From positions 46,064 through 110,063 of the IMG/VR virus record IMGVR_UViG_3300024354_000013: a stretch of 64,000 nucleotides of DNA; one strand, 5' to 3'. The notes below the pieces were generated by a model. It was not told the origin of the DNA. It did no database searches and saw only the letters and a program-made list of their open reading frames with translations. This document shows positions 7,260-59,761 of the stretch, in pieces. The position numbers were made by a program, and so were the translations under genes. Each line of letters starts with the position of its first letter. The stretch's first letter is position 1. The DNA comes from a virus.

Positions 7260-7578
7260 AAAAACTACATACGTAAATGCTGAGCTTGATTGGGCAGAAC
7301 AACAGCTTTCCTCCTGGAAGGCGTATGTTGATGCCAATCCCCTGCATGAACTTAAAGATAGGATTGAGTGGAAACCTACAGCCAAAGGAGGCATGCTTCC
7401 CATGGTGATTGCATCAATCGAAGCACAAGGTAAGTTTATACAGGAAACAATGAAGAACTACTTGGCTCTTCTAGAGGTGGTGGAGAAACTAAGAGAGAAG
7501 GAAGAAGCTAAAGTGGAAATCAGAGGCAATGGAGAACTAAGCTCCATGGCTGAGGACTTCCTTAAGAGCAGACGATAA
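7243..7578 (+). CDS. Possible small terminase-like protein, 111 aa
   Basis: A mostly helical protein with a long heptad-like stretch (SIEAQGKFIQETMKNYLALL then EVVEKLREKEEAKVEI, about residues 58-95) and a conserved-looking 'W.pT.KGGM' turn before it. Its stop overlaps the TerL start (TAATG). A small coiled-coil protein directly before TerL is the usual place for the small terminase subunit, but I see no clear N-terminal HTH, so this is inference from position. The winged-HTH protein at 5578 is the other candidate. Confidence 0.5.
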   Translation: MAKTIKKTTYVNAELDWAEQQLSSWKAYVDANPLHELKDRIEWKPTAKGGMLPMVIASIEAQGKFIQETMKNYLALLEVVEKLREKEEAKVEIRGNGELSSMAEDFLKSRR

Positions 7579-36770: not shown

Positions 36771-39437
36771 ATGGCTTCATTTACAGACCTCATACCGCAA
36801 TTTAACCCCTATATCCAGCAGCTCCCTGTGGACGCTATGGTGACTGTGGGCATGGAGAAACAGAAGCGCTATGACGAGGGTATACAAAAGATTCAGTCTC
36901 AGATAGATCAGATTGGTGGGTTAGACATCAGTAAACCTGGCCATAAGGCATATTTGCAATCTAAGCTGAATGAACTTGGTAACAACCTCAAAATAGTAGC
37001 TGCTGGTGACTTCTCCAACTTTCAGCTTGTTAATTCTGTATCTGGAATGACAGCTCAGATTGTTAGAGATCCTATAGTGCAGAATGCTGTAAGATCTACA
37101 CAACATGCTAGAAAGGAGCAAGAAAATATTCAAGCTGCTCAGAAGGCAGGTAAGTCATCTGTAGACAACGAAGACTTTTACTACGATAGGTATAACAAGT
37201 GGTTGAACGATGCTGATCTTTCCAAACCATTCACAGACGAGTTTATTGAATACAAGGATGTGGATGCCAAGCTTAGGGATTTAACAAGCAAGCTGAAAGA
37301 AGATGAGATAGGTATTGAGAATCCTTACATGAGAAATGAGCTAGGAGAAACCCTCTACTTTTATAAAGATCCTAAGACAGGACAAACCTTGGCTTCTACA
37401 GATCCTTCAAAAGGAGAGAAAAGACTAGACCTAGATATGTTGAGCATTAAGGTGAAGGGACTTCCTGCAGAAAGAATTCTTAACAACTTCTATGATAGCT
37501 TAGATGCAAATGACATTAGACAGCTAAGAATAAATAGCTGGGCACATTATAGAGGCGCTGGTCCTGAGTCTTTTAGAAAGGATATAGAGGATTCATATAA
37601 GAATAAGAAAGAAATGCTTTCTCAAAAAAAGGTGGACTTGGCTGTAAAAATCCAAAACCCATCAATCACAGGTCCAGCTAAAGATAGACTTGTAGCTGAA
37701 CTTGCAGATATTAATAACCAGATAGACAATAATGTACTAGATAAAGAATTAGCTAGTGATCTTGCAGAACTTCAAAATCCTAGAAATCTAGAAGAGTTCA
37801 AATACAAGCTGTATACACAAAACCATTTAACAAATCTAGCAAAAGATCTCTCATATAAAAGCTATGTACAGGAGAGGAAAGCCAATCCCGCTGAACAAGC
37901 AAACCTTGCAAGACAGAAGTTTCAGTTTGATCAGATCAAGGAAGCTAATGATATGTACAGATGGAAAACAACAGAGGGAAGACTTGAAAGAGAGTTTCAG
38001 TATAGAGTGAAAAAAGATCTTGAGGAAAAAATAGCTAAGGGGTACAGAGTGAGTCCTGGTGATTGGGGAACAGATATAGAAGCTCCTACAACACAAGATT
38101 TATTTAAAGACATGACCACCAGCGCTGAGGCATTTGGTGCTGAGCAAACCAGAATTGCAGAAGCTTTCTATCCAAGTACCAATCCTTTGTATAAGAACAT
38201 GACCTTAGATGAGAAGGTGAAAGCTCTTGGTATCAAATCTTCAGAATATAGACAAAATCCTAATATGACTCTTACGCCAGATCAAAAGCTGTATCTGGAG
38301 CAGTATAGAGAAATGGAGAACAACATTTCAAAAACAATCAATACATACAATTCTGCTATTAAGTTTGAAGAAGATTTCAAGAAGAAATATGTAGCTGAGA
38401 AGATAGGTGCTCAAACTGTCACTGTTGCAGGAAAGACCTATACAGGAGATGATGCTGCAGACTTTGATGCCACAGTAAACAAGTTTAACAAAATGGGTGT
38501 ATCAGTTGGTATGAGTGGTGCTCCTTCTGCATCTCCATATTTTGATACAAAAGCTGCTGACAATTTCTATAAAACATATAAAGGTGGTAAGCTTTATCAA
38601 ATGTGGCAAGCATATGATAGAGATAAAAGTCCATTTAAGAGAATGACTGGTGATGATGAACAGTTGATGAATTTCATGACACGTTCAAAAGTTCCTTTAC
38701 AAAATTTACAATCTGAGGTTTCAGAAGCCACATCAAAATACATTGCTTCAATCAGCCCTAATTATGCTGTACAAAGAGCTAGGATTGATATAAAGGATCC
38801 AAATAAAGCTAGAGACCTTGATGACTTCCTTGCAGAGAAAAGAGCACAGTATGAAAGCAAGGGTGCGCTCGCTACAAAAGACTTGGGAGATTACAATCCA
38901 ACCACTGCTACATCAATAAGAACAGGAGAAGGTTCTAGCTTCCAAATAGAAAAACGTAGAGACGGTGGTGCAAATGTTATTATGTTTGGAGCAAAGGGAT
39001 CTAAACAAGTGATACCAGCAACTGCTTCTGAGGTGGCTAGATTCTTTCCAGAGGTGGCAGTTAAAAATCCTTTCTCTGACATAAATGACATAATACTAAC
39101 TTCACCAGATCGTACAACAAATGCTGCAAATCAAAGATTTGTTCCTGGTTCTGGTAGCACAGCTGTAAATGCAAAGATTAGTGGGTACCAACTTCCTCAA
39201 CTCAAAGGCACTGGATATGAATCAAAGGTGAGACTGGACGTTGAAGGTAGTTTGAGTAACACAGGTAATCCTGAGACAGACTTATTCACAGTGATTATGT
39301 ATGTACCAGATCCTAAAACTGGTACATGGAAAGGTGACTATCTAAGTGATGGATATGTTTCATCAGCAGATGCTTTATTGAAAATGCAACTCATTAGTCC
39401 TATTAGTATTAATGATGCAATTAAAACATTTAAGTAA
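36771..39437 (+). CDS. Large virion/ejection-type protein, 888 aa
   Basis: The N-terminus (FNPYIQQLPVDAMVTVGMEK, then KRYDEGIQKIQSQIDQIGGLDI) is a recognisable module of large internal proteins in Bacteroidota phages. There it precedes the giant RNA-polymerase-bearing proteins. Most of the chain is helical and lysine/glutamate rich; the last 200 residues are beta-rich. No catalytic motif. It is the first gene after the promoter at 36725 and overlaps the 4013-residue gene by TAATG, so the two are probably made in fixed ratio and packaged together. Confidence 0.7.
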   Translation: MASFTDLIPQFNPYIQQLPVDAMVTVGMEKQKRYDEGIQKIQSQIDQIGGLDISKPGHKAYLQSKLNELGNNLKIVAAGDFSNFQLVNSVSGMTAQIVRDPIVQNAVRSTQHARKEQENIQAAQKAGKSSVDNEDFYYDRYNKWLNDADLSKPFTDEFIEYKDVDAKLRDLTSKLKEDEIGIENPYMRNELGETLYFYKDPKTGQTLASTDPSKGEKRLDLDMLSIKVKGLPAERILNNFYDSLDANDIRQLRINSWAHYRGAGPESFRKDIEDSYKNKKEMLSQKKVDLAVKIQNPSITGPAKDRLVAELADINNQIDNNVLDKELASDLAELQNPRNLEEFKYKLYTQNHLTNLAKDLSYKSYVQERKANPAEQANLARQKFQFDQIKEANDMYRWKTTEGRLEREFQYRVKKDLEEKIAKGYRVSPGDWGTDIEAPTTQDLFKDMTTSAEAFGAEQTRIAEAFYPSTNPLYKNMTLDEKVKALGIKSSEYRQNPNMTLTPDQKLYLEQYREMENNISKTINTYNSAIKFEEDFKKKYVAEKIGAQTVTVAGKTYTGDDAADFDATVNKFNKMGVSVGMSGAPSASPYFDTKAADNFYKTYKGGKLYQMWQAYDRDKSPFKRMTGDDEQLMNFMTRSKVPLQNLQSEVSEATSKYIASISPNYAVQRARIDIKDPNKARDLDDFLAEKRAQYESKGALATKDLGDYNPTTATSIRTGEGSSFQIEKRRDGGANVIMFGAKGSKQVIPATASEVARFFPEVAVKNPFSDINDIILTSPDRTTNAANQRFVPGSGSTAVNAKISGYQLPQLKGTGYESKVRLDVEGSLSNTGNPETDLFTVIMYVPDPKTGTWKGDYLSDGYVSSADALLKMQLISPISINDAIKTFK

Positions 39438-42400
39438 TGCCAATTTTTGACAAAGAGCTTATTGATAATGTTCATGAGGATGGGTCTTTGAAAGGACCCA
39501 CTCCTGTACTTGGTTCTTTTGCTGGAACTAAAGTTGATATGAATGCTTTTGGTCGAGGTGCATTGTTTGCTCCTAGTAGTAAGGTGGGACTTAGTCTCAA
39601 AGAAATAAAAGCAATACAGGGAACCCCTGGTCCGAAAGGTTTTGATCAATTGTTCCCTGCTGCTCTTGAGTCTGAACTTCTTGCCAACCAACGCTACCCT
39701 GTCTATGAAAGAGGTGTTGATTTGGAGCAAATATATGCATTGCAACAACCATGGTATCAAACACTTAGTAATGGTGTAGCCAAGCTTGGTATAAACGCCA
39801 TAGGTACATTTGCCCAGTCTTTAACAAACATCCCTAATACAATATCTGCAATAAAGAATGGAGAAGCATCAAAGCTCTCTGGTGATCCTAATGGATATGA
39901 AGGAACTATAGATAAATGGATGAGGGACATGAATGATGTTCTTCCTAACTATGCAAGTCAGTATTCTAGAGAACATCCGTTCCTTTCAGCAATTCCTTTT
40001 ACAAGAGGATCTGCATATTGGTGGGGAGAGAAGTTCTTGCCTAACATAGGATTTATGGTGGGTGCTGTAGGCGGTGCTGCTTTACAAGATATTGCTATTG
40101 GTGCTGTTACACAAGGACTTGGAGAGATTCCTCTTGTTGCATCTCAAGTGGGAAAAGCTGCTCTCTACTTAAACAGACTATTCAGTTCTGAAACCAAACT
40201 TGACAGACTTCTTGAAGCTGGAAGAGCTCTTGGTAAAACAGAGCAACAGCTTCTAAACGTGAAAAGACTTGGAGAACTTGCTGCTGCTGCAAAGGTGGGA
40301 AGTGGGTTTAGATATGGAACTGCAATTGCAGGAGCCTCTATGACTGAATCTGGTGTTGAAAGTAGAGGTGCATACACACAGGTGAAGGATGAACTTACAA
40401 GACAATATATTGCTGAGAATGGTAAAGAACCAGATTTTGCTGCTGCACAAGAAATAGAAAACTATGCAACAAATGCTATGAATGCCAGATTTGGTATAAA
40501 CATGGCTCTTCTTACAGCATCAAACACCCTGCAGTTTGGTAACCTATTCAGATCAATGACTGCTGCAAGAGGTGCTGTCACTCAGCTTGAAGGTATTGGA
40601 AAGATAGGACTTGCAGAGGGATCTCTAGATGTATTTGAAAAGCAGGGAGCTAAGACAGTTGCTGGTAAGGTTTGGGATAGTGTTAAGCCTGGTGTAGGTA
40701 ATATATTCAGAGAAGGTGTGTTTGAAGAAGGTGGACAGTTTGCTGCAGAAAGAGGAACTTACGATTATTATACAAGAAAGTATAAAAGCGATAAGTATAA
40801 AGGAACATGGGATGATCTAAATGAGTTGATTAAATCCACCACCTTCGGAATGAAGGAACAGTTTGGTAGTGTTGAAGGTATAGAGAACATGTTGATAGGA
40901 GGTCTCACTGGATTGATTGTTGGAAAGGTTCAGAACCTGTATGAGGAGAAGAAAGGAATAGGAGAGAAAGCTAGAACAGGAACTGCCTTAAACATCTTGA
41001 ACAGGTTTGGTATGACCAACACCCTTCAGAGGAAATACGATGATACAGTGACACAGGCTGGTATTCTGAGAGATATGCAGGAAGCTGCAAAGTCCAATGA
41101 TGTATTCAGATACAAGAACCTTCAGTCAGATGCATTCTTCAACTTTGTACAATCTCGTATTCCTTATGGAATGCACGATGTTACGGTTGAACAGCTTAAC
41201 ATGCTCAAGGATTTGTCTAAAGAACAATTTGAGCAGATGTTCCAATTAGACTTCAATGAAACAAACAAAGCTACAGTTAGTGAGTATGTAGATGCTCTTA
41301 TTAACAAGGCTAACGAAATAAAGAAAACATCTGATGCAATTAATCAGACGTTTGTAAATCCATTCAAGAATGCTCCTAAGGAAGGTGATGTAGCAAGTCA
41401 GATAGAAGCTGACAACTATAACACCTTTGAAGATTATAAGCTTGATTTGGCTTATTACGCTTCAATTGCTCCAGAGGTGAATAGAAGACTTTCATCTATT
41501 CAACAAGATGTAACTAACATCGTTCCTGGAGTGAGCAATAACATGTTGTCTCAGCTCACCAGTGAGAGTGGCTTGAAAGCCTTGAGTGAAATGTATGAGC
41601 AAAAGGCAAACATGCTCAATTCCACTGTAACAGAACTTACACCTGTTCAGGAGAAGATAGCCATCAAGAACCAAGTGAAAGCTCTTCGTACAAGATCTGA
41701 GAAAATATCTATGGCTCTTGGAGAGGGTAAGATTACAGACAAATTGTTTGAAGACCTTCTCAACTTTGAGATGAATAACCAAGATGCTACAAAGGAAAAC
41801 ATTGTTCCTTTGGCACAGGTTCAGAAGCTTCGTGATTATGGTTTTGACATAAACAGAAACCTTGAGAGAAAGAAGATAGCAGCTGACGCTTTTGATAAAC
41901 TTTCTACAAAAGAAGGATTTGAGAAATACTACGAACAAGCTGAACAGATAGCTGCTGATAAAGAGGAAGCAGAAAAGGAAGAAGTAAAGCCTGTTGAAGA
42001 AAAGAAAGAACCTGTATACAAAAATGTAGCTGGTGTAGAAGAAAAACTTGAAAAGAACAGAGAATACCAAATCCCAAAGGCTAAGATAGCTTCTGTAAAA
42101 AAGCTGGCTGATGACAGATGGAGTGTAAGCTACCCTGGAGGAGCTACAACATTCTACAAAACACAGGAAGATGCTAAACTTGCTGCTGATGACATCAATG
42201 ATGAACTGGGCAATCTGCAGAAGGTGAGAGTGTTGGAGTTTAATGAGGATGGCTCTGTTAAGGTGGAAAACCTGAAAGGAGATATATTCAATATACAACC
42301 ATCTAGACTTGCTGGATATGAGAGAGTGGAAACAAAAGAAGAGAAGTTCTCAAAAGCAGCAGGTGATATAAACAGACAACAGGAAGAACTTGAGAAGAGG

Positions 42401-45400
42401 AGTGGTGATATAAACGTAGGACAACAGTCTACAACAGCTCCTCCACCCCCTTCAAGTGAGGGTAAGCTGAAGGCAGCTAGAAGATTCTTTGCTTCAAGTA
42501 CAGGTCCTTCTGAGGCTGCTGAAGATCCTACACAGCTTTCTCCACAGGTGGTTCGCTCTAGGGTGTTTTTGAACAATGCTAAAAACTTCAAAAACAGAAA
42601 CAAACTTAGAGCCTTCCTAGTTACACCAAATCAATTGGCTGGTCTTGGTCTCACTGGACTAATCCAAATGCAATACAACCTTCCATTAAACACTCCTTTG
42701 TCAGACATCCCAAATGCAGATAATGTAGACTTGGGACTTGTTGCACAGGTGTATGTTGAGGAAGATGCTGGTAAGTTGTATTTTGTAGATGAGAAGGGTG
42801 AGCGCATCAGTGAAGTGAATGGTCAACCTACTGATATGAGTAGGGTTGTATTCAAGGCAATGCCTACCACTGAGATCTATTATAACTATAAAGACAAGAA
42901 TGGTAATCCAGTTCCTAAATATAGAGATGGTGAGAAGGAAATATTCCAGCAATATGCTAATGGCTGGAAACAAGCTAGAATAGGACTTTTTAAAGCTCCT
43001 GCATTTCCTATCAAACTGTATAAGTTTAACATATCAAGAGGTGTTGCAAAGACAAATAAAATAGATGGTAACTTTGTAAGAAGCCATGTTGGTAGCACCA
43101 TTCTTCCTGAAGACAAGATAGGTACGCAGGAAGGATTGATTGTGATAAACAAAGAAGGATTCATTACACACCAAGGAGATAACATTGGATGGCCTATTGG
43201 TTCTCCAGCAGTTCAGTTTGGTGACACTCTTGAATACATCAATAATAGTAGGTTTAGCAGAAACAAAGCTGTCTCTATTTATCAGGTGATAAAAGCTTTG
43301 GCTGCTGACACAATGAAACAGTATGAGTCTGGTAAGGGTATATCCCTCAATCAGGCTTACATGACATATTTGCAAAATGTTTTATATCTACGTAAGACAG
43401 GTGTTGTTAAAGCAGACAGCAATCAGTTCTTTATAGATACAGCAAACATGTCCATCTCTCTAGGCGGTAAAGTGTATAAGCTGGATGAGATTGAAAACAA
43501 TGAGAAGGAGATGGTAGAACAGCTTAGATCAATCTACCACAACCTAAACTCATTCACACTAAAGGACAACTTCTATTCTCCTTTCTACGAGTATAGCTAT
43601 GAAGATGGATCTCTGAAGGAAATAGAATGGCCTAACTACCAATCATATCTGCTTTCTTCAAAGTATCCAGACGGTAAGTCTAGAAGCACTGAAGACACCC
43701 CTTATTTGACAAACGTAGCTCCTCCTACACCAGCTGTTCCATATTCTTTTGAACAGAAGTATTCTACATTAATTGATTTTGATTTTCCTGCTGTAGCTGC
43801 ATCAAAAGCTGAACCTTCAGCTGCAGGTGTTCCTATGATAGGAGAATATGATATGGGTGGAGAGAAGGTGAACACCTACCCATCCACACTTGGACCTATA
43901 GACTTTACAGGCACCATATCGAAAAAAGATGGAAAGGATGTAATTGATGTAGATGTTAAGGACAATGACACCATCCTTAAGATTGCAAAGGATGCTGAGT
44001 TTGTTGAGAAGACAGTGGTTCCTACACTTAAGCAAGTGAAGGACTTTGATGAATCAGATGATGATATTTCATTGGTTAAAAAGTGGGCAGGATATAGAGT
44101 GATGGGTCAGTTGTATGCAATGAAAGAAGCCCCAGTTGCGGAAGAAAAAGAAGAAGAAGAAGTTAAACCCACTGAAGAAAAGAAATTTAATGCAAACGAT
44201 GCACTTCCTCCTTCAGATGAATACATGAGGGTGGGTGTCACTGAGGGTGCTGCCCCAATGACAGATGCTGAGTTTGAAGCGTTCAAACAGTTTCATGCAG
44301 AAAAAGTTCCAGGTATTCCATTTGAGGTGTTGGACAATGTTGTTACAACACACGACAATGAAAAAGCTTTTGGTGTATTTGAGAATGGTGTGGCTAAGTT
44401 TCACAAACTTGCTCCTGCTACAACCCCTTATCATGAGATAGGTGAAGGTGTGTGGAAAGCATTCCTCACTCCTGAGCAAAGACAATTATTGTTAGAGGAG
44501 TTCAAAGCTAAGTCTGGTCAGTTTACAGACAGAGCTTCAGGAAAGAAAATCTACTATGCTGATGCTACAGACCAGCAGGCTAAAGAAAGAATATTGGATG
44601 ACTATGCTGAGTTCAGAGCTGGTAAGATAAAAGCCAAGTCTCTGGGAGAAAGAGTGTTAGCATTCTTCAGAAGCATTATAGAATTCTTCAAGCAATTTGT
44701 ACAGAAACCTTCTATGAAGGAACAGTTGTTCAAAGCAATTGAATCTGGCAAGTTTAAAGAGTTCAAGGTTCCTGAGAGAGTGCAAAGAGACATTCCTGAA
44801 TATATGCGTATTCCTGGACTTACAGAAACTCAGGCATATGACTTTGTACAAGACATGATAATTCGTTCTGGCAGAATCCTATTTGGAGGAAGCAAGAAAT
44901 CCATATTCAAACTCAACCCAATCACTGGTAGAGAAGTGTTCAACACTATTGAGCAAGAATACATCAGGGAGAATAAAAGACAGCAGATGTCTGATGTTAC
45001 ATGGAACATGCTCAAGAAGAGAACAATAGACAGTCTTCGTACAATAGGAATCAACTATAACGAAGAGGATCTATTAAACATCAACTCTGAGGGAACTACA
45101 GGACTTGCCTATGCCCCAGAACCATTCTCTGTCAATTGGAAGAAGAGTTCTCCATTCCCTATAAAGTTCTTGGCATATGTTATGCCTAAGACAAAACCCA
45201 CCAACCAGCAAAACTCTACATCCTTAAAACTCCCAGAAAGAGAAATCACATCTAGTGTGCTAGGATTTAAGATGGCAGGATATGGAAGGGTATTCAGCAC
45301 GCTATTCAGTAAGCTGGCTAACACCACCAATCCTAAATTGATGGGTAAGAAGCTTTCTGACCTAGCCAAATATGATGCTGACTTTGTTAGATTCTTCCAA

Positions 45401-48400
45401 TACGTTGGTGGTAATCTGGACACAGGTGAAGTGGATTTCACAAACTTTAAAGATGCTGACTGGAGATTGTTCATCAACTTCTTCCAGACATTCAGCTTGC
45501 AAAAGCCTGAAGCACTTGCACAATATATAACAGGAAGTCAGGTTTATACAGCTCCTGCCAATCAGTTCACTGCTGCAAAAGAAATTGAATACGGATGGTA
45601 TGAGGGAATCAAAACGTTGTCCAAAGATCCTAACTCAATTGTAAAATGGAACAAGGAGAAGAAAACGTACGAGGTTAATACGAATGAGAAAGTTTACCCA
45701 ACAAGCATGCCAAAGAATCCTGAAGACCAGATTGAGTTCTTGTCTAAGATTGGCATTACATTCACTCTAGGTGACTATGCTAATCTAAAGGATGAGGGTA
45801 AAGACGAGTTCTCAGAAGCTGTAGGAAACATATACACCTATCTGAAACGAACAAAAGAGATAGGTATAGTGAGTGGAAAAGAACTAGGTATCAATTCTTA
45901 TGTATCTGCTCTAGCCAACCTTTTGATAGAATCAACCAATCCTCTCACCGATAGCACCTATCCTGGTGTGGATGGATCAAGACTTCAAACCTATACACAG
46001 AACAACTACTTCTCTGTGTTTGAAAATGAATTCAATGAGGCAGAAACTCTTGAGGATTTGATTTCTATGAGACCAGAACTCCAAGACATCTTCTCTAAGA
46101 ACAGCATTTCTCTAATGAAGAATGGACTGTTCTACAAGGCTGATGGTACAAAGATGAGGCTAATCAAGGTTTCGTACATACAGGGTGAGAAGAACAACAA
46201 CACAAACACTGGTAAGACAACCAACAGTTTACCTCTTGGACAAAGAATGACCCAAGAGATCAACCAGAACCTAAAAGGAAACTACTATATAATGCTCCCT
46301 GCAGATTCATCTACAGAGTGGATGATGAACATGGGCAACTATATTACATTTGATGACATCAAGAATGGCAGATCTTGGAACAGACTTTACAAGGTGTTCA
46401 AGGGCTATTTGATAGATGACATAAATGTTGCTTTGGATTGGGAGAACAGGTCTAAGATTAGGAACATTGGAAACAAAGCAAAAGAACTTCGTTTCTTCAA
46501 GGATATACTCTCAACATATAACAGCGCTGGAGAACTGGTTCCTTCAGCTGTACTCAACGAAATAAACAAAAGAATTGAAGCAGGAGAGTCTATTGACCAA
46601 ATAAAAGAATACATAGATCGTGAGGATGTTACAGAGAAGATCAATGAGATGGTTAAAATATCTGTTGAAGAAAATGTAACTAGAACCAGAGAAGCTCTTA
46701 TGTCAGAAAGCCAGATCGTTCTGCTTTCTAAACGTGAGCAAGATGATCCAAACATGTATGCCTATCCAAAGCTTGATGATAGTTTCACTAATAGCAAGAA
46801 TGTTTCTTTGAATAAATTTAAACTTTCAGAAGAAAGTGTTAATAATATTCTAACGTTTGCCAGGATGAACTATATGATTGCTAATATAGAGTTCCACAAA
46901 ATTCTATTTGGTGATCCATATCAGTTCAAGATAAAGGATAACATTCTTGATGAAACCAAACGTGTGAAGTCATTTGGTTCTCCAAGAAGAGTGACATTTG
47001 ACACTCCTGAGTATAACAGCTCATTGAATGATGAGTATAACAAGGTGGGTGATGTGTCCTTGGATCCTGAAGAACTTGGTTATCATTTACACAAAGACTA
47101 CGCTAACACCATCACGGTGAAGGATATTGAGTTCTCAACTCCACTGTATAAAGAAGTGAATGAGGCAGATGCTGATTCTTGGCTGATGGATACAGCATAC
47201 AGAGAGCTTAAGCTCAAGAATGCACAGTGGCCAGAAGAAGCTGAAGAATGGCATCAATGGCAAATGGCTTACACCAGACAGAATATGCCAGGCTATGAGT
47301 ATAAGAATGAGCAATTAAGAAAGCTTGATCAAGAACGTCTTAAGAAGCCTGAGCCTTTGTTTGTGCTTGAAAAGCTTAAGCCAGTTGCTACAGGAACCAA
47401 AGCTGCTTCAACAAACATTAATCTCGTAGTTGATAAGTTTGCACAGCTTCCTATATATTACAAAGCTGTTCAGGGAAGAAACCTTGAGAAGCTTTACACT
47501 AAGATGTGGAAGGAGAAGGTTGATTATGCTGTAATGGTTAGTGGTAGAAAGCTGGGTGCTGAGAAGCTTCAGAACCTCTATGCCAACAATCAGTTTAACG
47601 ATGCTCCATTTGACAACTTTGTTAAGGTGCCTTGGAAAGCTCTTGGTATTCAGGTGGAAAACTCTTATGAGAATCCTAAGGATCAAACGTGGGGATCTCA
47701 GCCTTCAAAGATATCTAGCATGGACTTCTTCAATAATGGTAAAGAGGCTATAGCTGGTGCTGAGAAGGCATACAAAGATTACATAGATGCTACCAAGAGG
47801 TATCATGACAATAAGTATCAGCAGCTTCTAAACAAGCTTGGTCTTAAAGATTTGGGAGATGGATTTAAACTTGTTGATCCTGTGGCTGTTGCAGAAACTC
47901 TTGAGGGTGAATTCTTCAGAAGACAACTTTCTGAGAATGTGAAATATGCTATCCAGTTGGACGAGAACAAACAGTTCCCTATTCCTTTTGAAGCATCTAC
48001 ACACTACACGCAGATTAAGGACATTCTCTACTCAATGGTGAATAAGTCTTTGGTGAGTCCTAAGTTGAACGGTGGGCCTAAGGCTATGTCATCTGTCACT
48101 CTTTGGGAGAAAGGAAAGAGAGATCCAAATGCTCCAAACCCAGAACTTAAGTTCTATACAAAGGACGATCCATATATTGAGATATTGCTTCCTTATAAGT
48201 ATAAGAGCAAGTTTAATAAGAGAAGATTCCCAACAGATGAGTCTATTCTAGAATACCTGAATAGCACTCCAGAGGGCAAACAAATAATACAGGGTGTTGC
48301 TTTCCGTGTTCCTTGTGATGCACAGAATAAGATTGACACATATAGAATAAAAGGTTTCCTTCCAGAATTCATGGGAGATGTTGTAATTGTTCCTTCAGAA

Positions 48401-51400
48401 CTTACAACAAAAGCAGGTCTTGACTTTGACTTTGATAAGATGAGCACCTACCTCAAGTCTATATATGTAGACAAGAATGGTAATGTTCGTTTGGTTAAAT
48501 ACCTTGGCTCTGAAGAAGCTACAAAGGATTTCTTTGGTAAGGTGTTTGATGATAGACTTGAGAAGAAGAAGGTGAATAAAGCTGAGATATTGGATGCTCT
48601 GCAAATCCTTGACCTGGGACTTGAAGATCCAAACAATCTGGTAGAAAGATACTCAGACCTTCTGGATTTGCTTCTTGAAGATGCTACAGCAGAAGATCGT
48701 GCTGATGTCCTTATAAAGGAACTTGAAAGTTTAGGAGATGCAAATCTCCAAGCTACTATGAGAGATAGATATGTGAACGACATGTACAACCGTGCTCTTG
48801 AGAATGAATACTTCCAAACTCTTGAGAATATGCTCACCCTTCCTGGCAACTATGATAGAAGACTTGTTCCTACCAATGATGCTGGTTTGAAGGAAGTGGC
48901 AAATGAAATAAACAGACTTAGAGGAATAGATACTGATAAGGTGAAGAACAGACTTCTGGATGGTACATACATGACCACACTTAGAAATGACTTCATCACA
49001 GGTAAGGCATGGATAGGTATTGTTGCTACAAACATCACTTCTCATTCTCTATTCCAAAAAACCCAAACTCATCTAGATCCTTTAAAACTGTCACAGTTGT
49101 CTGACTTTGAGAGGTCAATTATTGGAAATGGTAGTATAGTTCTTCCACATAACACTGTGAATATCAATGGAATAGAACGTCTTTCATTGTCTGGATCTAA
49201 AACTGCTGATGGAAACAATCAATACATTTCTGACAGACTTGCTGGATATGGTACAGCTGTTCTTGATGTGTCTAAGGATAGATTCATCATGGATATCATC
49301 TATTCAGATTTGCTGATAAGTCCAACCATGTTCCTTGAGAGAATTGGATCAGGTGCATACGTTTCTAAGTTTATTAACCAGCCCATCATCAGAAAGTACA
49401 TTTCTTATCTGGAAGGAAAAGGAGACAAGAGATTGTTCTCTTCTGCAAACGTAAAAGCTGTCAAAGCTTTCTTCCCCACTACATCCTCACTCACTTACAC
49501 AGTGGGTATAGATATAAAAAACTTTGATAATAATATTGAACAATACGCAAAAGAAAGTCTCACGAGTGAACAGAATGCTGAACAGCATAACATCCTTGAT
49601 GAGTTTTTGAAATATGCCAAGATGGCTCAGTATAGTTACAAACTTACACAAGCCATCAACTATGACACATCTAAGTCAAGAAACTCAGATTCCTTCTCAA
49701 GGAAGCAAACCAAAACAGGAATTGCTCAACAGAAAAACATCTTCTGCTGTGCAGAGAAAATCCTCAATGCTTCCTTTATAGGTAACCAAAGAGACTTGAT
49801 TGACTTGATGATGTCTTCTATGGGAGAGATAATTAAGACTGAGCAAGACAAGTTTAGAGTGATAACTGACTCAGTATTAACACCTTATGAAGAAGTGGAC
49901 TTTATGGCAGATGAGAACTTTGAGAAGGTGGCAAGTAAACTCAAGGCTAGCTTCATTGATTACATCATTCAAACCAAGACCAATCTAAATGAGGAGCTTG
50001 CAAGCTTAACACTTGGAGACAACTCTGTAGCTAAACAGCTTGAGCAGGCAAAGAAGAAATACCCAACATTGAGAATACTTAACGAGCTCCAAGTTGTAAC
50101 TGGTGATAGAGAGGGAGGTGCTCAAAGCATCAAAACTAGAGTGAAGATAACAGATCCTGTAGATGAGAACATTTACACAGAGATGATGAGAGAGCTGAAT
50201 GATGTTGATCCTGACCTCTTCAACAACATTGTTAAGGTGGCTCTGATACAGGGAGTTTATGACTCTTCTATATCCATAAAGAACATTATTCCTCCAGAGA
50301 AGTATTCTGAGAAGGTGAAGCCTATTATTGATTCTCTGGCTCCAACATTGGATGTACAATTGTTCTCTAAAGGAGCTTTCCAAAAGAACAACTGGAACGA
50401 TGATAATGTGATGCCTGTAGCTAAGATAAAGCTGTTTGAAGATGAAAGTGTAGCACCTTTTGAAGACCAATATGGCAATCAATATTACAGATATAAATCT
50501 CCATCATTTGGGGCAATAAAAGAATTGGGAATCAAAGATGACCTTGACAGGAGAATAATGTTGATTGATCCTAAGTTTAACTCTTCAGATGCACAATACG
50601 AGTTTTTGAAGGTTCGTAGAATCACACTCATTGAAAACCTTGGAGAATTGGTTGACATGGAAACAGGTCTCACCATAACAAATGCAGCTGTCTACAACAG
50701 AAGAAAGTCAGGAGACCTATCTGTAGATAATGTGTATGGCTATCAGAAGGTGAGAGATGCTTTGGGTAATCCTGTAACAACATATAAGGGAGAATATGTA
50801 TACAAGCTTGTAAACCTGTTGGGAGATGGCAACCGTGCTTCTGAATACTATGCTGACAACAGACGTTCTATATACAACAATGGAACTGTTCAGATTGATA
50901 ATGAGATTCCTGATGAGGACATTATAAATTATTTTAGTGGCGTTGTTAAAGCTGAAAAACAAGTTGTACCTTCACAATTAGTTGATGAAGAAGTTAGTGA
51001 CACAGATATAAATGAGTTAATTACAATAAACTTGGCTGAAGAAAATTCAACAGTAGGTGAAGCTTATGAGATAGGTCTTATTGATAATGAGTTTAAATTG
51101 AATTATGTATTTGAAGATTTCAAGACCTACAAAGAAAACATTGACAAGGGTGAAAGATTAATTGCAGAAGGTAAAAACAAGGAAGCTCTTGAGTTTTTGA
51201 ATAAGGTTCCAACACCTCGTGAGTTTGATGAAGATGGAAATGTTGTAGATGCTAGTATTGATAATGAAACTCTTTTGGCAAAAATGATATGGCTTCATTA
51301 TGAAAACATATATGATAAATCACCTGCTAAAGCTATAAGAGGTGCAATTAATGATATTGTGAATGATCTGACCAGTGCTTCAAAAAGAGTGAGTGACTAT

Positions 51401-51478
51401 AGAAAAGGAAATGAAGAGATATCTGCTAAAGAGTTTCCTAATAAAGATCTAGACATTAAAGACGAAAAATGTAAATAA
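39437..51478 (+). CDS. Giant virion protein with RNA polymerase domain, 4013 aa
   Basis: The key evidence is GLDFDFDKM (Asp at residues 2996, 2998 and 3000), preceded by GFLPEFMGDVVIVPSELTTK. This is the arrangement around the catalytic metal-binding DxDxD motif of crAss-like virion RNA polymerases related to YonO and eukaryotic RNA-dependent polymerases. Upstream are a hydrophobic Gly/Ala segment (about 200-220) and two Glu/Lys-rich linkers (about 835-855 and 1570-1583). A zincin-like segment TTPYHEIGEGVW has a site reading HEIGE instead of HExxH (H1666). Such proteins are injected with the DNA and transcribe early genes. It is coupled to genes on both sides by TAATG. Confidence 0.8.
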   Translation: MPIFDKELIDNVHEDGSLKGPTPVLGSFAGTKVDMNAFGRGALFAPSSKVGLSLKEIKAIQGTPGPKGFDQLFPAALESELLANQRYPVYERGVDLEQIYALQQPWYQTLSNGVAKLGINAIGTFAQSLTNIPNTISAIKNGEASKLSGDPNGYEGTIDKWMRDMNDVLPNYASQYSREHPFLSAIPFTRGSAYWWGEKFLPNIGFMVGAVGGAALQDIAIGAVTQGLGEIPLVASQVGKAALYLNRLFSSETKLDRLLEAGRALGKTEQQLLNVKRLGELAAAAKVGSGFRYGTAIAGASMTESGVESRGAYTQVKDELTRQYIAENGKEPDFAAAQEIENYATNAMNARFGINMALLTASNTLQFGNLFRSMTAARGAVTQLEGIGKIGLAEGSLDVFEKQGAKTVAGKVWDSVKPGVGNIFREGVFEEGGQFAAERGTYDYYTRKYKSDKYKGTWDDLNELIKSTTFGMKEQFGSVEGIENMLIGGLTGLIVGKVQNLYEEKKGIGEKARTGTALNILNRFGMTNTLQRKYDDTVTQAGILRDMQEAAKSNDVFRYKNLQSDAFFNFVQSRIPYGMHDVTVEQLNMLKDLSKEQFEQMFQLDFNETNKATVSEYVDALINKANEIKKTSDAINQTFVNPFKNAPKEGDVASQIEADNYNTFEDYKLDLAYYASIAPEVNRRLSSIQQDVTNIVPGVSNNMLSQLTSESGLKALSEMYEQKANMLNSTVTELTPVQEKIAIKNQVKALRTRSEKISMALGEGKITDKLFEDLLNFEMNNQDATKENIVPLAQVQKLRDYGFDINRNLERKKIAADAFDKLSTKEGFEKYYEQAEQIAADKEEAEKEEVKPVEEKKEPVYKNVAGVEEKLEKNREYQIPKAKIASVKKLADDRWSVSYPGGATTFYKTQEDAKLAADDINDELGNLQKVRVLEFNEDGSVKVENLKGDIFNIQPSRLAGYERVETKEEKFSKAAGDINRQQEELEKRSGDINVGQQSTTAPPPPSSEGKLKAARRFFASSTGPSEAAEDPTQLSPQVVRSRVFLNNAKNFKNRNKLRAFLVTPNQLAGLGLTGLIQMQYNLPLNTPLSDIPNADNVDLGLVAQVYVEEDAGKLYFVDEKGERISEVNGQPTDMSRVVFKAMPTTEIYYNYKDKNGNPVPKYRDGEKEIFQQYANGWKQARIGLFKAPAFPIKLYKFNISRGVAKTNKIDGNFVRSHVGSTILPEDKIGTQEGLIVINKEGFITHQGDNIGWPIGSPAVQFGDTLEYINNSRFSRNKAVSIYQVIKALAADTMKQYESGKGISLNQAYMTYLQNVLYLRKTGVVKADSNQFFIDTANMSISLGGKVYKLDEIENNEKEMVEQLRSIYHNLNSFTLKDNFYSPFYEYSYEDGSLKEIEWPNYQSYLLSSKYPDGKSRSTEDTPYLTNVAPPTPAVPYSFEQKYSTLIDFDFPAVAASKAEPSAAGVPMIGEYDMGGEKVNTYPSTLGPIDFTGTISKKDGKDVIDVDVKDNDTILKIAKDAEFVEKTVVPTLKQVKDFDESDDDISLVKKWAGYRVMGQLYAMKEAPVAEEKEEEEVKPTEEKKFNANDALPPSDEYMRVGVTEGAAPMTDAEFEAFKQFHAEKVPGIPFEVLDNVVTTHDNEKAFGVFENGVAKFHKLAPATTPYHEIGEGVWKAFLTPEQRQLLLEEFKAKSGQFTDRASGKKIYYADATDQQAKERILDDYAEFRAGKIKAKSLGERVLAFFRSIIEFFKQFVQKPSMKEQLFKAIESGKFKEFKVPERVQRDIPEYMRIPGLTETQAYDFVQDMIIRSGRILFGGSKKSIFKLNPITGREVFNTIEQEYIRENKRQQMSDVTWNMLKKRTIDSLRTIGINYNEEDLLNINSEGTTGLAYAPEPFSVNWKKSSPFPIKFLAYVMPKTKPTNQQNSTSLKLPEREITSSVLGFKMAGYGRVFSTLFSKLANTTNPKLMGKKLSDLAKYDADFVRFFQYVGGNLDTGEVDFTNFKDADWRLFINFFQTFSLQKPEALAQYITGSQVYTAPANQFTAAKEIEYGWYEGIKTLSKDPNSIVKWNKEKKTYEVNTNEKVYPTSMPKNPEDQIEFLSKIGITFTLGDYANLKDEGKDEFSEAVGNIYTYLKRTKEIGIVSGKELGINSYVSALANLLIESTNPLTDSTYPGVDGSRLQTYTQNNYFSVFENEFNEAETLEDLISMRPELQDIFSKNSISLMKNGLFYKADGTKMRLIKVSYIQGEKNNNTNTGKTTNSLPLGQRMTQEINQNLKGNYYIMLPADSSTEWMMNMGNYITFDDIKNGRSWNRLYKVFKGYLIDDINVALDWENRSKIRNIGNKAKELRFFKDILSTYNSAGELVPSAVLNEINKRIEAGESIDQIKEYIDREDVTEKINEMVKISVEENVTRTREALMSESQIVLLSKREQDDPNMYAYPKLDDSFTNSKNVSLNKFKLSEESVNNILTFARMNYMIANIEFHKILFGDPYQFKIKDNILDETKRVKSFGSPRRVTFDTPEYNSSLNDEYNKVGDVSLDPEELGYHLHKDYANTITVKDIEFSTPLYKEVNEADADSWLMDTAYRELKLKNAQWPEEAEEWHQWQMAYTRQNMPGYEYKNEQLRKLDQERLKKPEPLFVLEKLKPVATGTKAASTNINLVVDKFAQLPIYYKAVQGRNLEKLYTKMWKEKVDYAVMVSGRKLGAEKLQNLYANNQFNDAPFDNFVKVPWKALGIQVENSYENPKDQTWGSQPSKISSMDFFNNGKEAIAGAEKAYKDYIDATKRYHDNKYQQLLNKLGLKDLGDGFKLVDPVAVAETLEGEFFRRQLSENVKYAIQLDENKQFPIPFEASTHYTQIKDILYSMVNKSLVSPKLNGGPKAMSSVTLWEKGKRDPNAPNPELKFYTKDDPYIEILLPYKYKSKFNKRRFPTDESILEYLNSTPEGKQIIQGVAFRVPCDAQNKIDTYRIKGFLPEFMGDVVIVPSELTTKAGLDFDFDKMSTYLKSIYVDKNGNVRLVKYLGSEEATKDFFGKVFDDRLEKKKVNKAEILDALQILDLGLEDPNNLVERYSDLLDLLLEDATAEDRADVLIKELESLGDANLQATMRDRYVNDMYNRALENEYFQTLENMLTLPGNYDRRLVPTNDAGLKEVANEINRLRGIDTDKVKNRLLDGTYMTTLRNDFITGKAWIGIVATNITSHSLFQKTQTHLDPLKLSQLSDFERSIIGNGSIVLPHNTVNINGIERLSLSGSKTADGNNQYISDRLAGYGTAVLDVSKDRFIMDIIYSDLLISPTMFLERIGSGAYVSKFINQPIIRKYISYLEGKGDKRLFSSANVKAVKAFFPTTSSLTYTVGIDIKNFDNNIEQYAKESLTSEQNAEQHNILDEFLKYAKMAQYSYKLTQAINYDTSKSRNSDSFSRKQTKTGIAQQKNIFCCAEKILNASFIGNQRDLIDLMMSSMGEIIKTEQDKFRVITDSVLTPYEEVDFMADENFEKVASKLKASFIDYIIQTKTNLNEELASLTLGDNSVAKQLEQAKKKYPTLRILNELQVVTGDREGGAQSIKTRVKITDPVDENIYTEMMRELNDVDPDLFNNIVKVALIQGVYDSSISIKNIIPPEKYSEKVKPIIDSLAPTLDVQLFSKGAFQKNNWNDDNVMPVAKIKLFEDESVAPFEDQYGNQYYRYKSPSFGAIKELGIKDDLDRRIMLIDPKFNSSDAQYEFLKVRRITLIENLGELVDMETGLTITNAAVYNRRKSGDLSVDNVYGYQKVRDALGNPVTTYKGEYVYKLVNLLGDGNRASEYYADNRRSIYNNGTVQIDNEIPDEDIINYFSGVVKAEKQVVPSQLVDEEVSDTDINELITINLAEENSTVGEAYEIGLIDNEFKLNYVFEDFKTYKENIDKGERLIAEGKNKEALEFLNKVPTPREFDEDGNVVDASIDNETLLAKMIWLHYENIYDKSPAKAIRGAINDIVNDLTSASKRVSDYRKGNEEISAKEFPNKDLDIKDEKCK

Positions 51479-54400
51479 TGGCTTGTAGACTAGATGTTAA
51501 AAAGGCAATATTGGACAAAGCTTTCAACGAAATGTTTGAAGGTAGGTACACTTATTCCCGTATATCTGATGACACCATAAGAATAAATGGTAAAGTGGAT
51601 GCTGCTGGGACAAAAGCTTTGAGTAGAACTCAAGCCTTGAATATAGCTAAAAGAAAGCTGGCACAAGTTAGAAAGTCATTTAATAATGCTGTAACTGGAT
51701 ATGTTACAAACGTTTCTGATTATGATCCAGTTACAATAACTCTGGATGTCAATCCTAATTATGTAGAACACGAATACAATAGACTTCCTGAAGAACAAAA
51801 GACAGATCCTAAGAATGCTATGTTACAGAAGGAAGACTTAGATATGTCAAAAGCTTCTCCTGCCACTGTGGCCATGATAAAAGACTTCCTCAATCGTATT
51901 GGTGTTAACATCAAACCTATGCAACAGATTGTTGTAAATGGTGAGAAGCAGAATGCAAATGGTGTAGCTCTTATTATGCAGAAGCTTATACAGGTGGTAG
52001 AGGGTAAAGAGGCTGAAGCTCTTCCTGAGGAAGCAATGCACTTTGCTGTTGAGATTATAAAGCAAACAAACCCAGCCCTTTACAAGAAGCTGTTGAGTGA
52101 GATAAACAACTATAGGATATTAAAGCAAGTGTTTGCTGACTATGCGTCTGATCCTCTCTATCAGACAAAGGATGGTAAGCCAGATGTCCTCAAACTTAAA
52201 GACGAGGCTATAGCAAAGGTGTTGGCTGAGGTGGTTATTAAGAACCGTGAGGGAGCTGTGGACAATCCTCAGAACCTTGAGAAAGCACTTGGTTGGTGGG
52301 GAAAGATTATGGAATGGCTCAAAGGACTATTCACAAAGAGTGGATTTGACCAGGCAGCTATGGACATCATCTCTGGAAAGAAAATAGGTACAGCGGATGA
52401 CATCAGAGCTGATATAGATTTAGCTTTCCTTCAGCAGGCAAATGATCCACAGACCACCATCTTTAATAAAATAAAAGAGGTGGATTCTAAGATAGAGAAA
52501 AAAACTGTTATAGAGGATGGTGAGGAAGTTGAGAGATACTTCATAGATGGAAAGCAAATCAGAAGAAGGGTGACAGATCTTTCTAAAGATTGGTATTCCA
52601 GACAGCGTGACCAGAAGGATTTAACAAAGAGTGACTACCAAAAGGCACTTGATGAACTTAAGAAAGAGAAGGGTACAGCTGGCCATAAATATCTAGAACT
52701 TGCATTTGGCATGTTCATAGATGAGAACGGATTTGTAAGAGATGTTCCTTTGGATGAGGATGTAGCATTAGCCAAGGTGCCTGCTTCAGACAGGTCTATG
52801 TTTAGTGTTCTGAAGGACAATCTACAAGAAAGAATTAGAGTGATCAATGCTCAGGGTGGTGGTAAGGTGAGATTTGCTAGTGAGGTGACCATCTACGATC
52901 CTAACAGATCTATAGCTGGTACAGTGGACTTCCTTGCTATTACACCAGAAGGAAATACATATGTTCTTGACTGGAAGTTCATGGCTATTAAGACAGATCA
53001 ATTCCAAGAGATTCCTTGGTATAATGTCAATAGCTGGAGAATACAAATGGACCAGTATAAGCTCATCCTAAAGAGCGTGTATGGTGTTAAGCCTGGAAAC
53101 TTTGAACAGACTAGGATGATTCCTATACAGGCTATTTACACAGGAGGGGATGCAAGGTCTGGTGTTCTTCCAATGCTTGAGAAGGTGAGGATTGGAGATG
53201 TTGTGGTGAACAACATTGATGAAGATTATTTATTACCTCTTGCTTTGATTGATGAGAAAACAGGTAGCAAAAAGCTTGACAGCATTCTTGAAAAACTCAA
53301 TGCTGTATACAAAAAGTTTTCTGAGAGAAGAGTGTTGCCTTCTGAAACATTGAGCAAAAGAGAACAGCTCAACTCACTGTTCCAGGCAATCAGACATCTT
53401 CAGATGAAGAGAGAGGTGAGACCTCTACTTAGACAAGCTAAGATATTAAACATACAGATAAAGAAGCTCCTACAGAGATATAAGAATGAGTTTGAAGGAA
53501 AAGATCCTAAGTCTTTCACAGACCAACAGGTTAGTGAGTTTGCTGCAGATCTTATTACAGCACAGGAGTCTTTGAGAACCTACACCAATCTTGATGTGGA
53601 TTTGAGATTTCTGTTCCCAGAAGAACTGTCAGAAGAGGATGCAAAGCTTAATGAAGACTTAAGAAAGACAGCAGATGCTGCCAGATCTCTTATGAATGAG
53701 CTAGAAGGTGAGGATGGTGTTATAAACAACTTTGCTTCTGAAATAGTTGCTAAGTCTGAAGGAATAGATTCCTTGTTGTCTCCAGAGAAAATAATAAAAG
53801 GTTTTACAAAACTCTTTGGAACCACATCAACATTACAGACAAGAGCTATACAAATCCTTTACAAAAAGGCAAACAAAGCGTTTGCTTATTCTGGAATGGA
53901 GGCAATCAACGAGAACAAAAGACTGCTGTCTATAAAGGAAGCCTACGATAAATGGGCAAGATCTAAAGGACTTACAGCAAAAAGCTATTTTGATATTATC
54001 AAGAAGAAAGGAAAGAACGAGCTTATTGATGAGTTCAATCCTGAGTTCTTCTCCACCCTTAAGAAGAAGATAGAGGCTAAGGATTATGATTGGGTGAGAG
54101 CTAACATCAATGTTGCTGAATACAACAAAGACCTTTCTGAGAAGCTCAAGGAAGAGATACAAAGAATTATTGACAGACCTAGGGTGTTTGAGAACCAAGA
54201 AGAAGCTGCAAGAATGCAGAGATATGAGGAGACAAAGAATCCTGCAGATCTTCCAAATGAGCTTAAATATGAAATAAACCAGGCTAGAGCTTTATACAAC
54301 ACAACCACTACAGAATCTCCAGGATGGTTGCTTTATGATCTTGTAAAGAAACATGCAGCAGAGAAATGGGTGTCTAAAGAATGGAAAGAGCTGAACGATC

Positions 54401-56490
54401 CAAAGAACAAAGCTGCTCTTGATTTCTATAATTACATTAGAGACAAGAACGAAGAATACAGAGATCTTGGATATATAAGAAGAGACAGCGCTAGGGTGTT
54501 CCTGCCATTTGTAAGAAAAACCCTTACAGAGAAACTTGTAATGGGAGGAAACGTTAGACTTGGTGAACAGTTCTTCAGAAGCATATCTATTGATGAAGGA
54601 GATATAGGATATGGTCAAACTGATCCATTGTCAGGCAAACCCATCAATGTCATCCCTAAGTATTTCACATCTCCTATAGAAGGAGAAGTGAGCGAAGACC
54701 TGTTCAGGACAATGGCTTTCTATAATGAGGCAGCCATTAGATATAAGTATTTGAAACAGATGGAGGATCAGTTGAGACTTGTGTCTGGTGTTGAGAGGAA
54801 CAAGAAGGCAATTGCCACCTCTATATTTGGAAAAACAGAATACAAAGATGATGTTCTCCAATACACTCCAGACAATAATGAAAACTCCAAGCTCTACGAT
54901 GATATGATGAAATCCATCATATATGGTCAGAGATATGTTACAAGTGAGACATTTGATCAGCTGCTTGGAAAGCTTGGTAATTGGGGTGAGACATTGAACA
55001 AGAAGCTTGGAATAAACGTATTCCCAGAGGGTCTGTCTGAAAGACAAGTGAGTGTTAATAAGGTTATTGACAATCTGAACAGCACATTCCAGCTGAGTGC
55101 TCTTGGACTAAACCTCCTGTCAGCATCTTCCAACTTCTTTGGTGGTAATGCTCAGTCTATCATCAACTCTGGTAAGTATTTCACCAAGGGTGATTATCTG
55201 GCTAGTGAGCTTGAGATATTCACACAGAAGCTCAATGTTCCTAACCAAAAGAAAATAATAGCTGCTCTTGAATACTTCCTCCCTCTGACAGAAAACTATA
55301 ACAGGGAGTTTGCAAAGAAGCTTTCTCTCAGCACATTGACACAGGAGAGTTTACAAGATGGGCTGATGTTCCTTATGAGAAAGTCTGACTGGAATGTACA
55401 AACTGCCAACTTCCTTTCCTTCCTCAAGAACACTATTGTTCAAGATGGAGAAGTGGTGAATGCTAGAGAATACCTAAGGTCTCAGCCTAAATATGCAAAC
55501 ATATATGCTGGTGGGGTGGAGCAAAGAAAAAGCCTAGAGAATCAATTTGAGGAGGATGTTAAGAAACTTGTTGAAGAGAAGGGTGTATTAAAAGTTTCAC
55601 AAATCGTTGATAATAAACTAGTTATACCTGGTGTTGAGCAACAGTCACAAAGTGTTGTTGATCTCAGAAGGAACGTACAAAGTCTGAGCAAAGCTGCGCT
55701 TGGTAACTTGTCAGAAGATGATCTCAGAATGATAAACATGAGTGTATATGGTAAGTCATTCATGGTGTTTAAAAACTGGATTCCTCGTCTGATTGATGTA
55801 AGATTTGGTAATGTTAAATACAATTCAGCCTCTGATGCCTACGAATGGGGAAGAACAAGAATGGTGTTTAGGATTATCAAGGAAGACCTATTCAGAATGT
55901 TAGGTAATCTCCATGGATCTCTAGTGGCTAATGAGAGAGGGGTTGAATTCATGAGACAGCTTTATGAAAAGAAGAGGGATGAATATAAGAAGGACACAGG
56001 CAAGGAACTAGATATGACAGAGGCACAGTTTATAGATCTTGTCAGAGGAAACATTAGGTCTCAGATAATAGACGTAATATTCTACGTAAGCCTACTCATC
56101 CTTGTGGCAGGCATAAAGAACCTTCCAGATGATGAGGAAGATCCTTCTGTCAAGAACCAATATAGGTTCCTTGTAAAGATGGCTGATAAGTTTAAGGATG
56201 AGATTAGCTATTTCTACGATCCTACAGCCATCCTCAAAACTGTATCTGGAAACATATTCCCAGCCATCTCCCTGATTGAGAACTTCAGAAAGGGACTGGG
56301 TAACTTCTTTGTAGAAAACTGGGCTCTTATAGAAGGTGATGAGAAAACTGTAAAAGATACATATGTTATCAAGTATTGGATGCGTACCTTCCCATTCACC
56401 AATCAGATGGTTGGTTACCTCCCAATGTTCTACCCAGATGCTGCCAAAGACCTGGGTATAAAGATGCAAAAGAACTATGGTATACGATAG
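51478..56490 (+). CDS. Giant virion protein with PD-(D/E)XK-like nuclease domain, 1670 aa
   Basis: Residues about 469-527 show a RecB-type nuclease pattern: E469, then AGTVDFLA (D484), then VLDWK (D498, K500), then QMDQY (Q526, Y527). The remainder is largely helical and charged. Near the C-terminus there is a hydrophobic segment, DVIFYVSLLILVAGI (about 1530-1544), and a Pro/aromatic tail. It directly follows the polymerase-bearing protein (TAATG overlap), as second large subunits do in crAss-like phages. It could be part of the virion transcription complex with a nuclease added for ejection or host takeover. Confidence 0.7.
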   Translation: MACRLDVKKAILDKAFNEMFEGRYTYSRISDDTIRINGKVDAAGTKALSRTQALNIAKRKLAQVRKSFNNAVTGYVTNVSDYDPVTITLDVNPNYVEHEYNRLPEEQKTDPKNAMLQKEDLDMSKASPATVAMIKDFLNRIGVNIKPMQQIVVNGEKQNANGVALIMQKLIQVVEGKEAEALPEEAMHFAVEIIKQTNPALYKKLLSEINNYRILKQVFADYASDPLYQTKDGKPDVLKLKDEAIAKVLAEVVIKNREGAVDNPQNLEKALGWWGKIMEWLKGLFTKSGFDQAAMDIISGKKIGTADDIRADIDLAFLQQANDPQTTIFNKIKEVDSKIEKKTVIEDGEEVERYFIDGKQIRRRVTDLSKDWYSRQRDQKDLTKSDYQKALDELKKEKGTAGHKYLELAFGMFIDENGFVRDVPLDEDVALAKVPASDRSMFSVLKDNLQERIRVINAQGGGKVRFASEVTIYDPNRSIAGTVDFLAITPEGNTYVLDWKFMAIKTDQFQEIPWYNVNSWRIQMDQYKLILKSVYGVKPGNFEQTRMIPIQAIYTGGDARSGVLPMLEKVRIGDVVVNNIDEDYLLPLALIDEKTGSKKLDSILEKLNAVYKKFSERRVLPSETLSKREQLNSLFQAIRHLQMKREVRPLLRQAKILNIQIKKLLQRYKNEFEGKDPKSFTDQQVSEFAADLITAQESLRTYTNLDVDLRFLFPEELSEEDAKLNEDLRKTADAARSLMNELEGEDGVINNFASEIVAKSEGIDSLLSPEKIIKGFTKLFGTTSTLQTRAIQILYKKANKAFAYSGMEAINENKRLLSIKEAYDKWARSKGLTAKSYFDIIKKKGKNELIDEFNPEFFSTLKKKIEAKDYDWVRANINVAEYNKDLSEKLKEEIQRIIDRPRVFENQEEAARMQRYEETKNPADLPNELKYEINQARALYNTTTTESPGWLLYDLVKKHAAEKWVSKEWKELNDPKNKAALDFYNYIRDKNEEYRDLGYIRRDSARVFLPFVRKTLTEKLVMGGNVRLGEQFFRSISIDEGDIGYGQTDPLSGKPINVIPKYFTSPIEGEVSEDLFRTMAFYNEAAIRYKYLKQMEDQLRLVSGVERNKKAIATSIFGKTEYKDDVLQYTPDNNENSKLYDDMMKSIIYGQRYVTSETFDQLLGKLGNWGETLNKKLGINVFPEGLSERQVSVNKVIDNLNSTFQLSALGLNLLSASSNFFGGNAQSIINSGKYFTKGDYLASELEIFTQKLNVPNQKKIIAALEYFLPLTENYNREFAKKLSLSTLTQESLQDGLMFLMRKSDWNVQTANFLSFLKNTIVQDGEVVNAREYLRSQPKYANIYAGGVEQRKSLENQFEEDVKKLVEEKGVLKVSQIVDNKLVIPGVEQQSQSVVDLRRNVQSLSKAALGNLSEDDLRMINMSVYGKSFMVFKNWIPRLIDVRFGNVKYNSASDAYEWGRTRMVFRIIKEDLFRMLGNLHGSLVANERGVEFMRQLYEKKRDEYKKDTGKELDMTEAQFIDLVRGNIRSQIIDVIFYVSLLILVAGIKNLPDDEEDPSVKNQYRFLVKMADKFKDEISYFYDPTAILKTVSGNIFPAISLIENFRKGLGNFFVENWALIEGDEKTVKDTYVIKYWMRTFPFTNQMVGYLPMFYPDAAKDLGIKMQKNYGIR

Positions 56491-59679: not shown

Positions 59680-59694
59680 CACAAATTGGTACAT
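59655..59694 (+). repeat. 20-bp tandem duplication causing an apparent frameshift
   Basis: GTTGACACAAATTGGTATAT (59655-59674) is followed at once by the same 20 bp with one change (59675-59694). The first copy brings TGA into frame at 59677. Without one copy, the frame would read on as IGTCTTTTTTQPI and stop at 59727-59729. Confidence 0.85.
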
Positions 59695-59761
59695 GTACCA
59701 CAACCACTACAACAACTCAACCAATATAATTAAATTTACAAAACAACCTTAATATATCAAC

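Follow-up and report, generated by a model that had tools for sequence, protein, structure and literature searches.

Does the giant open reading frame of this locus encode a virion RNA polymerase, as the segment GLDFDFDKM (residues 2994-3002 of 4013) and the GFLP...GD context in front of it (GFLPEFMGDVVIVPSELTTKAGLDFDFDKM) suggest, and what else is carried on so long a chain? The window analysed here is a stretch of 64,000 nucleotides that spans bases 46064-110063 in a virus record of 110,063 bases, with its features collected in Table 1. We are highly confident that an environmental crassvirus here encodes a virion-packaged, single-chain, two-barrel DNA-dependent RNA polymerase (RNAP) with an N-terminal fusion to a cargo protein, the latter being separate in phi14:2 and crAss001. 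The analysis demonstrates the homology of the core, the intact DxDxD together with other invariant residues, the matching predicted fold, the fusion and the crassvirus gene order. The frame claimed from the sequence indeed reads through without a stop, and it is not an assembly error, since two further contigs carry it: L008 holds the same 12,042-nt frame with 0 mismatches and L009 holds 9,306 nt of it with 1 mismatch.

Table 1. Features of the window discussed in the text (positions in the window; residues refer to the 4013-aa protein).
Feature	Position	Strand	Evidence or remark
Terminase large subunit	7578..9605	+	phrog_6681, 2.3e-88
Portal protein	9605..12187	+	phrog_6547, 2.7e-98
Major head protein	14157..15710	+	phrog_11589, 1.5e-30
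Crassvirus muzzle protein	24822..30602	+	Pfam PF25731, 113.5 bits (cut-off 27)
888-aa upstream protein	36771..39437	+	1-nt overlap (TAATG) with the RNAP fusion gene
4013-aa fusion: N-terminal virion cargo module, zincin-like domain, crAss-type two-barrel RNA polymerase	39437..51478	+	
N-terminal cargo module, residues 61-815	39617..41881	+	homologous to the N-termini of crAss001 gp47 and phi14:2 gp67 and to the Lbo-JY46 1552-aa protein
Zincin-like domain (putative), residues ~1600-1790	44234..44806	+	homologous to the C-terminal HEAFH domain of crAss001 gp47
HEIGE motif, residues 1666-1670	44432..44446	+	HExxE form of HExxH
Approximate junction, residues ~1791-1844	44807..44968	+	gene split in phi14:2 (gp67/gp66) and crAss001 (gp47/gp50)
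RNA polymerase core as modelled, residues 2376-3540	46562..50056	+	AF2, Foldseek, profile to 6vr4
Invariant Lys 2667	47435..47437	+	95-sequence alignment
Invariant Lys 2705	47549..47551	+	95-sequence alignment
DFDFD metal-binding motif, residues 2996-3000	48422..48436	+	three Asp invariant
1670-aa RNAP-associated protein	51478..56490	+	position of crAss001 gp49 / phi14:2 gp65; 1-nt TAATG overlap

The surroundings place the record among the crassviruses or their near relatives, because terminase, portal, major head and muzzle genes lie upstream of the polymerase as one structural block, congruent with membership of the Crassvirales. At the DNA level, no match of the window to phage records was found. 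The muzzle is apparently split, with positions 1587-1776 of phrog_15100, its C-terminal portion, falling in a separate frame at 31152-32018 and a 174-aa frame (30615-31139) standing between the two. Two fibre genes follow the polymerase block at 56962-62734, one coding for a collagen-repeat fibre of 905 aa and the other for a 990-aa fibre with a Peptidase_S74 chaperone domain.

Searched as a single sequence, the whole protein gave no match in Pfam, PHROGs or PDB, and the homology of the polymerase emerges only with relatives or profiles. Using tblastn, crassvirus RNAPs were recovered in cr108_1 (E 9e-18), crAss001 (6e-14) and phi14:2 (gp66, 4e-10), while blastp aligned residues 2398-3326 with gp66 795-1662 at E 1.8e-19. 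A profile built of 95 relatives matched gp66 at 1.6e-111 and 6vr4_A, the PDB entry whose chain is gp66, at 8.5e-120 over 6vr4 residues 801-1852. Alignment of nine diverse sequences left 18 invariant columns, the three Asp of the motif among them, and across the 95 sequences 12 positions are invariant, including K2667, K2705, R2957, P2959, D2996, D2998, D3000 and K3001. In cr108_1 (L012:23400-23700) the catalytic motif of the RNAP gene is broken, GSD being followed by IDKM some 300 bases later, and the interruption is probably an intron.

Could DFDFD nevertheless have arisen by chance in a giant protein unrelated to these polymerases? The failure of the single sequence in Pfam, PHROGs and PDB would fit such a view, as would the 32 of 63 IMG/VR pattern matches that look like chance. 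The profile match to 6vr4, the fold match (E 1.2e-31) and the synteny speak against it, and profile and fold together already refute it, leaving a practically negligible probability; the 18 invariant columns and the profile matches to gp66 and 6vr4_A likewise take the motif beyond chance. Thus the assignment to the crAss-like virion-type RNA polymerases made by the sequence-only reading is upheld, by the profile and by the predicted fold alike.

The fold was assessed on an AlphaFold2 model of the core with a mean pLDDT of 88.3 and a pTM of 0.85. The top Foldseek match in the PDB is 6vr4_A (E 1.2e-31, probability 1.00, TM-score 0.66 by query length, 17% identity over 1181 columns). Second comes plant RDR2, at a probability of 0.91 but with an E of 0.014 and a weak TM-score, and the viral structures matched in BFVD are crass-like proteins, including those of phi14:2 and cr118_1. 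The structure around residue 2996 had been named beforehand as the place where absence of the fold would count against the claim; with 6vr4 as the best match of the model, the claim withstood this test. Gp66 is reported to contain two double-psi beta-barrels (PMC7886860), and the present chain would likewise carry two, as judged by the 6vr4 match rather than by a count from coordinates.

A matching fold could also persist in a protein that is non-virion or has lost its activity, a polymerase-like structural protein serving only as virion cargo or scaffold. Both the great length of the chain and the annotation of some relatives, which calls them merely structural protein or virion structural protein, are in line with this idea. 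However, every residue invariant across the 95 relatives is intact here, whereas an enzyme in decay should have lost some of them, rendering this explanation very improbable compared with an active virion polymerase.

The sequence-only reading had singled out DFDFD as a variant of the DFDID of phi14:2. That motif is correctly given (gp66 1361-1365); the variant is not unusual, as it recurs in many crassvirus RNAPs. Among the near relatives of the 95-sequence alignment, DFDFD occurs only in the window and in L065, with DFDID in 65 and DFDVD in 5, and reference phages have DFDID, DFDVD or DYDID. A search of IMG/VR for the pattern G..DFDFDK, hence a sample selected by motif, returned 63 stretches, 31 of which hold a frame with a significant RNAP profile match (2 being contigs of the window's own virus and 29 others); the other 32 lack such a match. 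Considering these 31, DFDFD was rejected as a distinctive feature, and the middle residue of the motif is simply a variable hydrophobic position.

Nor are the length and the number of domains exceptional, as had been supposed, since the related viruses that were sampled as a rule have a fused chain of some 4,000-5,000 aa. The cargo module, zincin-like domain and polymerase form one complete frame in 63 of 80 IMG/VR relatives (3189-5114 aa, median 4223). The fusion is two genes that are adjacent in phi14:2, gp67 and gp66, joined into one, as read from the sequences; with 1797 and 2180 aa, respectively, these add up to 3977 aa, about the length of the fusion. The cargo module recovers crAss001 gp47, phi14:2 gp67 and the Lbo-JY46 protein by blastp (1.0e-16, 1.7e-9 and 1.2e-49) as well as by profile (264.5, 43.3 and 290.9 bits). 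Residues from about 1845 onwards match the gp66/gp50 side, and we place the junction at ~1791-1844 because the zincin profile stops near 1778 and the N-terminal RNAP profile begins at 1845.

The cyanobacterial Leptolyngbya phage Lbo-JY46 (PP438436, L163-L166) has TerL (39%), muzzle (34-36%) and cargo module in common with the window, and for the window's TerL it outscores all other phage records searched. Its cargo module is a stand-alone protein of 1552 aa, and a profile search of its genome detected no crAss-type RNAP. Not every relative thus links the module to transcription; it probably serves packaging or ejection, as its stand-alone form in a genome that gave no polymerase suggests. A GNAT domain occurs together with two HExxH motifs in a neighbouring 2748-aa protein of Lbo-JY46.

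Comparison with known systems situates the fusion further. The core corresponds to gp66 ~793-1811 of phi14:2, with which it shares the predicted fold, the DxDxD and the gene order gp67-gp66-gp65, at ~21% identity; in contrast to the window, gp67 and gp66 are separate genes and lack a recognisable HExxH/E motif. vRNAPs of crAss-like phages have been described as fused to large proteins of unknown function (PMC10770324). In the Suoliviridae, cr118_1 (4946 aa), cr1_1 (4551 aa) and cr125_1 likewise join the zincin-like domain to the polymerase on one chain of 4502-4946 aa, with the associated protein adjoining, but with HEAFH in place of HEIGE. The fused RNAPs of this family and the giant RNAP of Flavobacterium phage Fpv1 (a 4401-aa chain, DYDID) differ from the window in being only ~20-25% identical, in having DFDID, DFDVD or DYDID motifs and in that profiles did not detect the N-terminal cargo module there. 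Closer are the IMG/VR relatives, L065, L087, L096 and L083 among them, which have the same fusion (complete in L083, L087 and L096) and of which L065 reaches the highest core identity, up to 75%; unlike the window, they mostly have DFDID, and about one third have an HExxH zincin-like motif. More remotely, gp96 of Thermus phage P23-45, a tail-tape-fused vRNAP, likewise combines a two-barrel RNAP with a giant virion protein (PMC10770324), though with another partner protein, another virion type, DFDGD and the RNAP at the N-terminus.

Between cargo module and polymerase lies the zincin-like domain, where the sequence-only reading saw a remnant. The HEIGE motif is present as described; remnant is the wrong word, as the domain is conserved in 78 sequences. 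In their alignment H and E of the HE pair are invariant, the fifth position takes no residue other than E (49 sequences) or H (29), and a Glu 51 residues downstream of the motif is kept in 77. Against the signature of a zincin metallopeptidase, HExxH plus a third ligand, the window thus has HEIGE with the Glu candidate for the third ligand kept. The AF2 model of the region (mean pLDDT 72.5 overall, the core mostly 85-95) has an order of helices and strands that fits a zincin. Foldseek returned no PDB match at E<=0.001, and the weak matches obtained, some of them to known metallopeptidases, are not significant; the zincin label accordingly draws on the motif and the order of secondary structure.

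Mapped onto the RNAP tree, a quick tree computed without a mixture model, the H/E state requires 13 changes, at least 12 of these on starred branches. Two bases separate the codons of His from those of Glu, and neither Asp nor Gln was seen as an intermediate at the fifth position in the 78 sequences. As both His and Glu can bind metal, a ligand swap is possible. In a survey of substituted HExxH sites, the replacements enriched at the second His are Lys, Arg and Leu, and Glu is not named there (PMC3650047). This apparent recurrent switch between HExxH and HExxE is the sole mildly new point of our analysis, and one possibly unexpected to the specialist.

What might such a domain do? As an addition to the virion polymerase reading, it may cut the fused chain and release a free polymerase in the manner of a polyprotein. 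Its position at the junction of two modules which other crassviruses encode in separate genes hints at such a role, as do the conserved HE and the downstream Glu. On the other hand, the window has HExxE rather than HExxH, the zincin fold is putative, and HExxH is found in the unfused gp47 of crAss001 and HExxE in many fused forms, so that the form of the motif does not track fusion. We therefore regard self-cleavage as quite unlikely. Doubtful, too, is the broader suggestion that the interdomain would be a metal site whose second His was exchanged with Glu at least 12 times while remaining functional, being a protease or a metal-dependent switch that acts on the giant chain during delivery.

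The fusion gene is flanked by two further genes of the block. The 888-aa protein upstream has a homologue in an 845-aa protein of Lbo-JY46 and, going by gene order only, would be the counterpart of a small crassvirus cargo protein. Downstream, the 1670-aa RNAP-associated protein matches cr108_1 (blastp 1.7e-31) and crAss001 gp49 (3.3e-6). All three genes overlap by 1 nt (TAATG), which fits a single transcription unit. The associated proteins of phi14:2 (gp65), cr125_1 and cr1_1 (L010, L018, L019) carry a different HExxH (LHEIMH, LHELVH). The idea that an HExxH of the adjoining associated protein compensates for HExxE found no support: among the window's relatives, 3 of 71 such proteins have an HExxH and 68 loci do not.

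Returning to the virion polymerase, the annotation of phi14:2 gp67, gp66 and gp65 comes from virion proteomics, mass spectrometry found crAss001 gp47, gp49 and gp50 in the virion (PMC10172136), and by analogy with both the fused chain would be packed in the particle. It may then pass portal and tail with partial unfolding and refold in the host (PMC10172136). There the polymerase would transcribe the early genes of the phage, D2996, D2998 and D3000 holding the Mg2+; such transcription by a virion RNAP has been shown for phi14:2 only (PMC7886860). If the N-terminal module acts in packaging or ejection, the fusion would thereby couple polymerase delivery to DNA entry.

Aggregated, the protein is an ordinary member of a known family, the crAss-like virion-packaged RNAPs, and its fusion with a second virion protein is the usual state of environmental relatives. 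It adds a well-supported environmental branch to the crassvirus virion polymerase, and the single-chain form of cargo plus polymerase is the rule in the relatives sampled and no oddity. The HExxH/HExxE switch at the junction offers a starting point for asking how the chain is processed, or held, while it is ejected, and with the cyanophage relative, in which no RNAP was detected, it may become easier to tell what the cargo module does apart from transcription.
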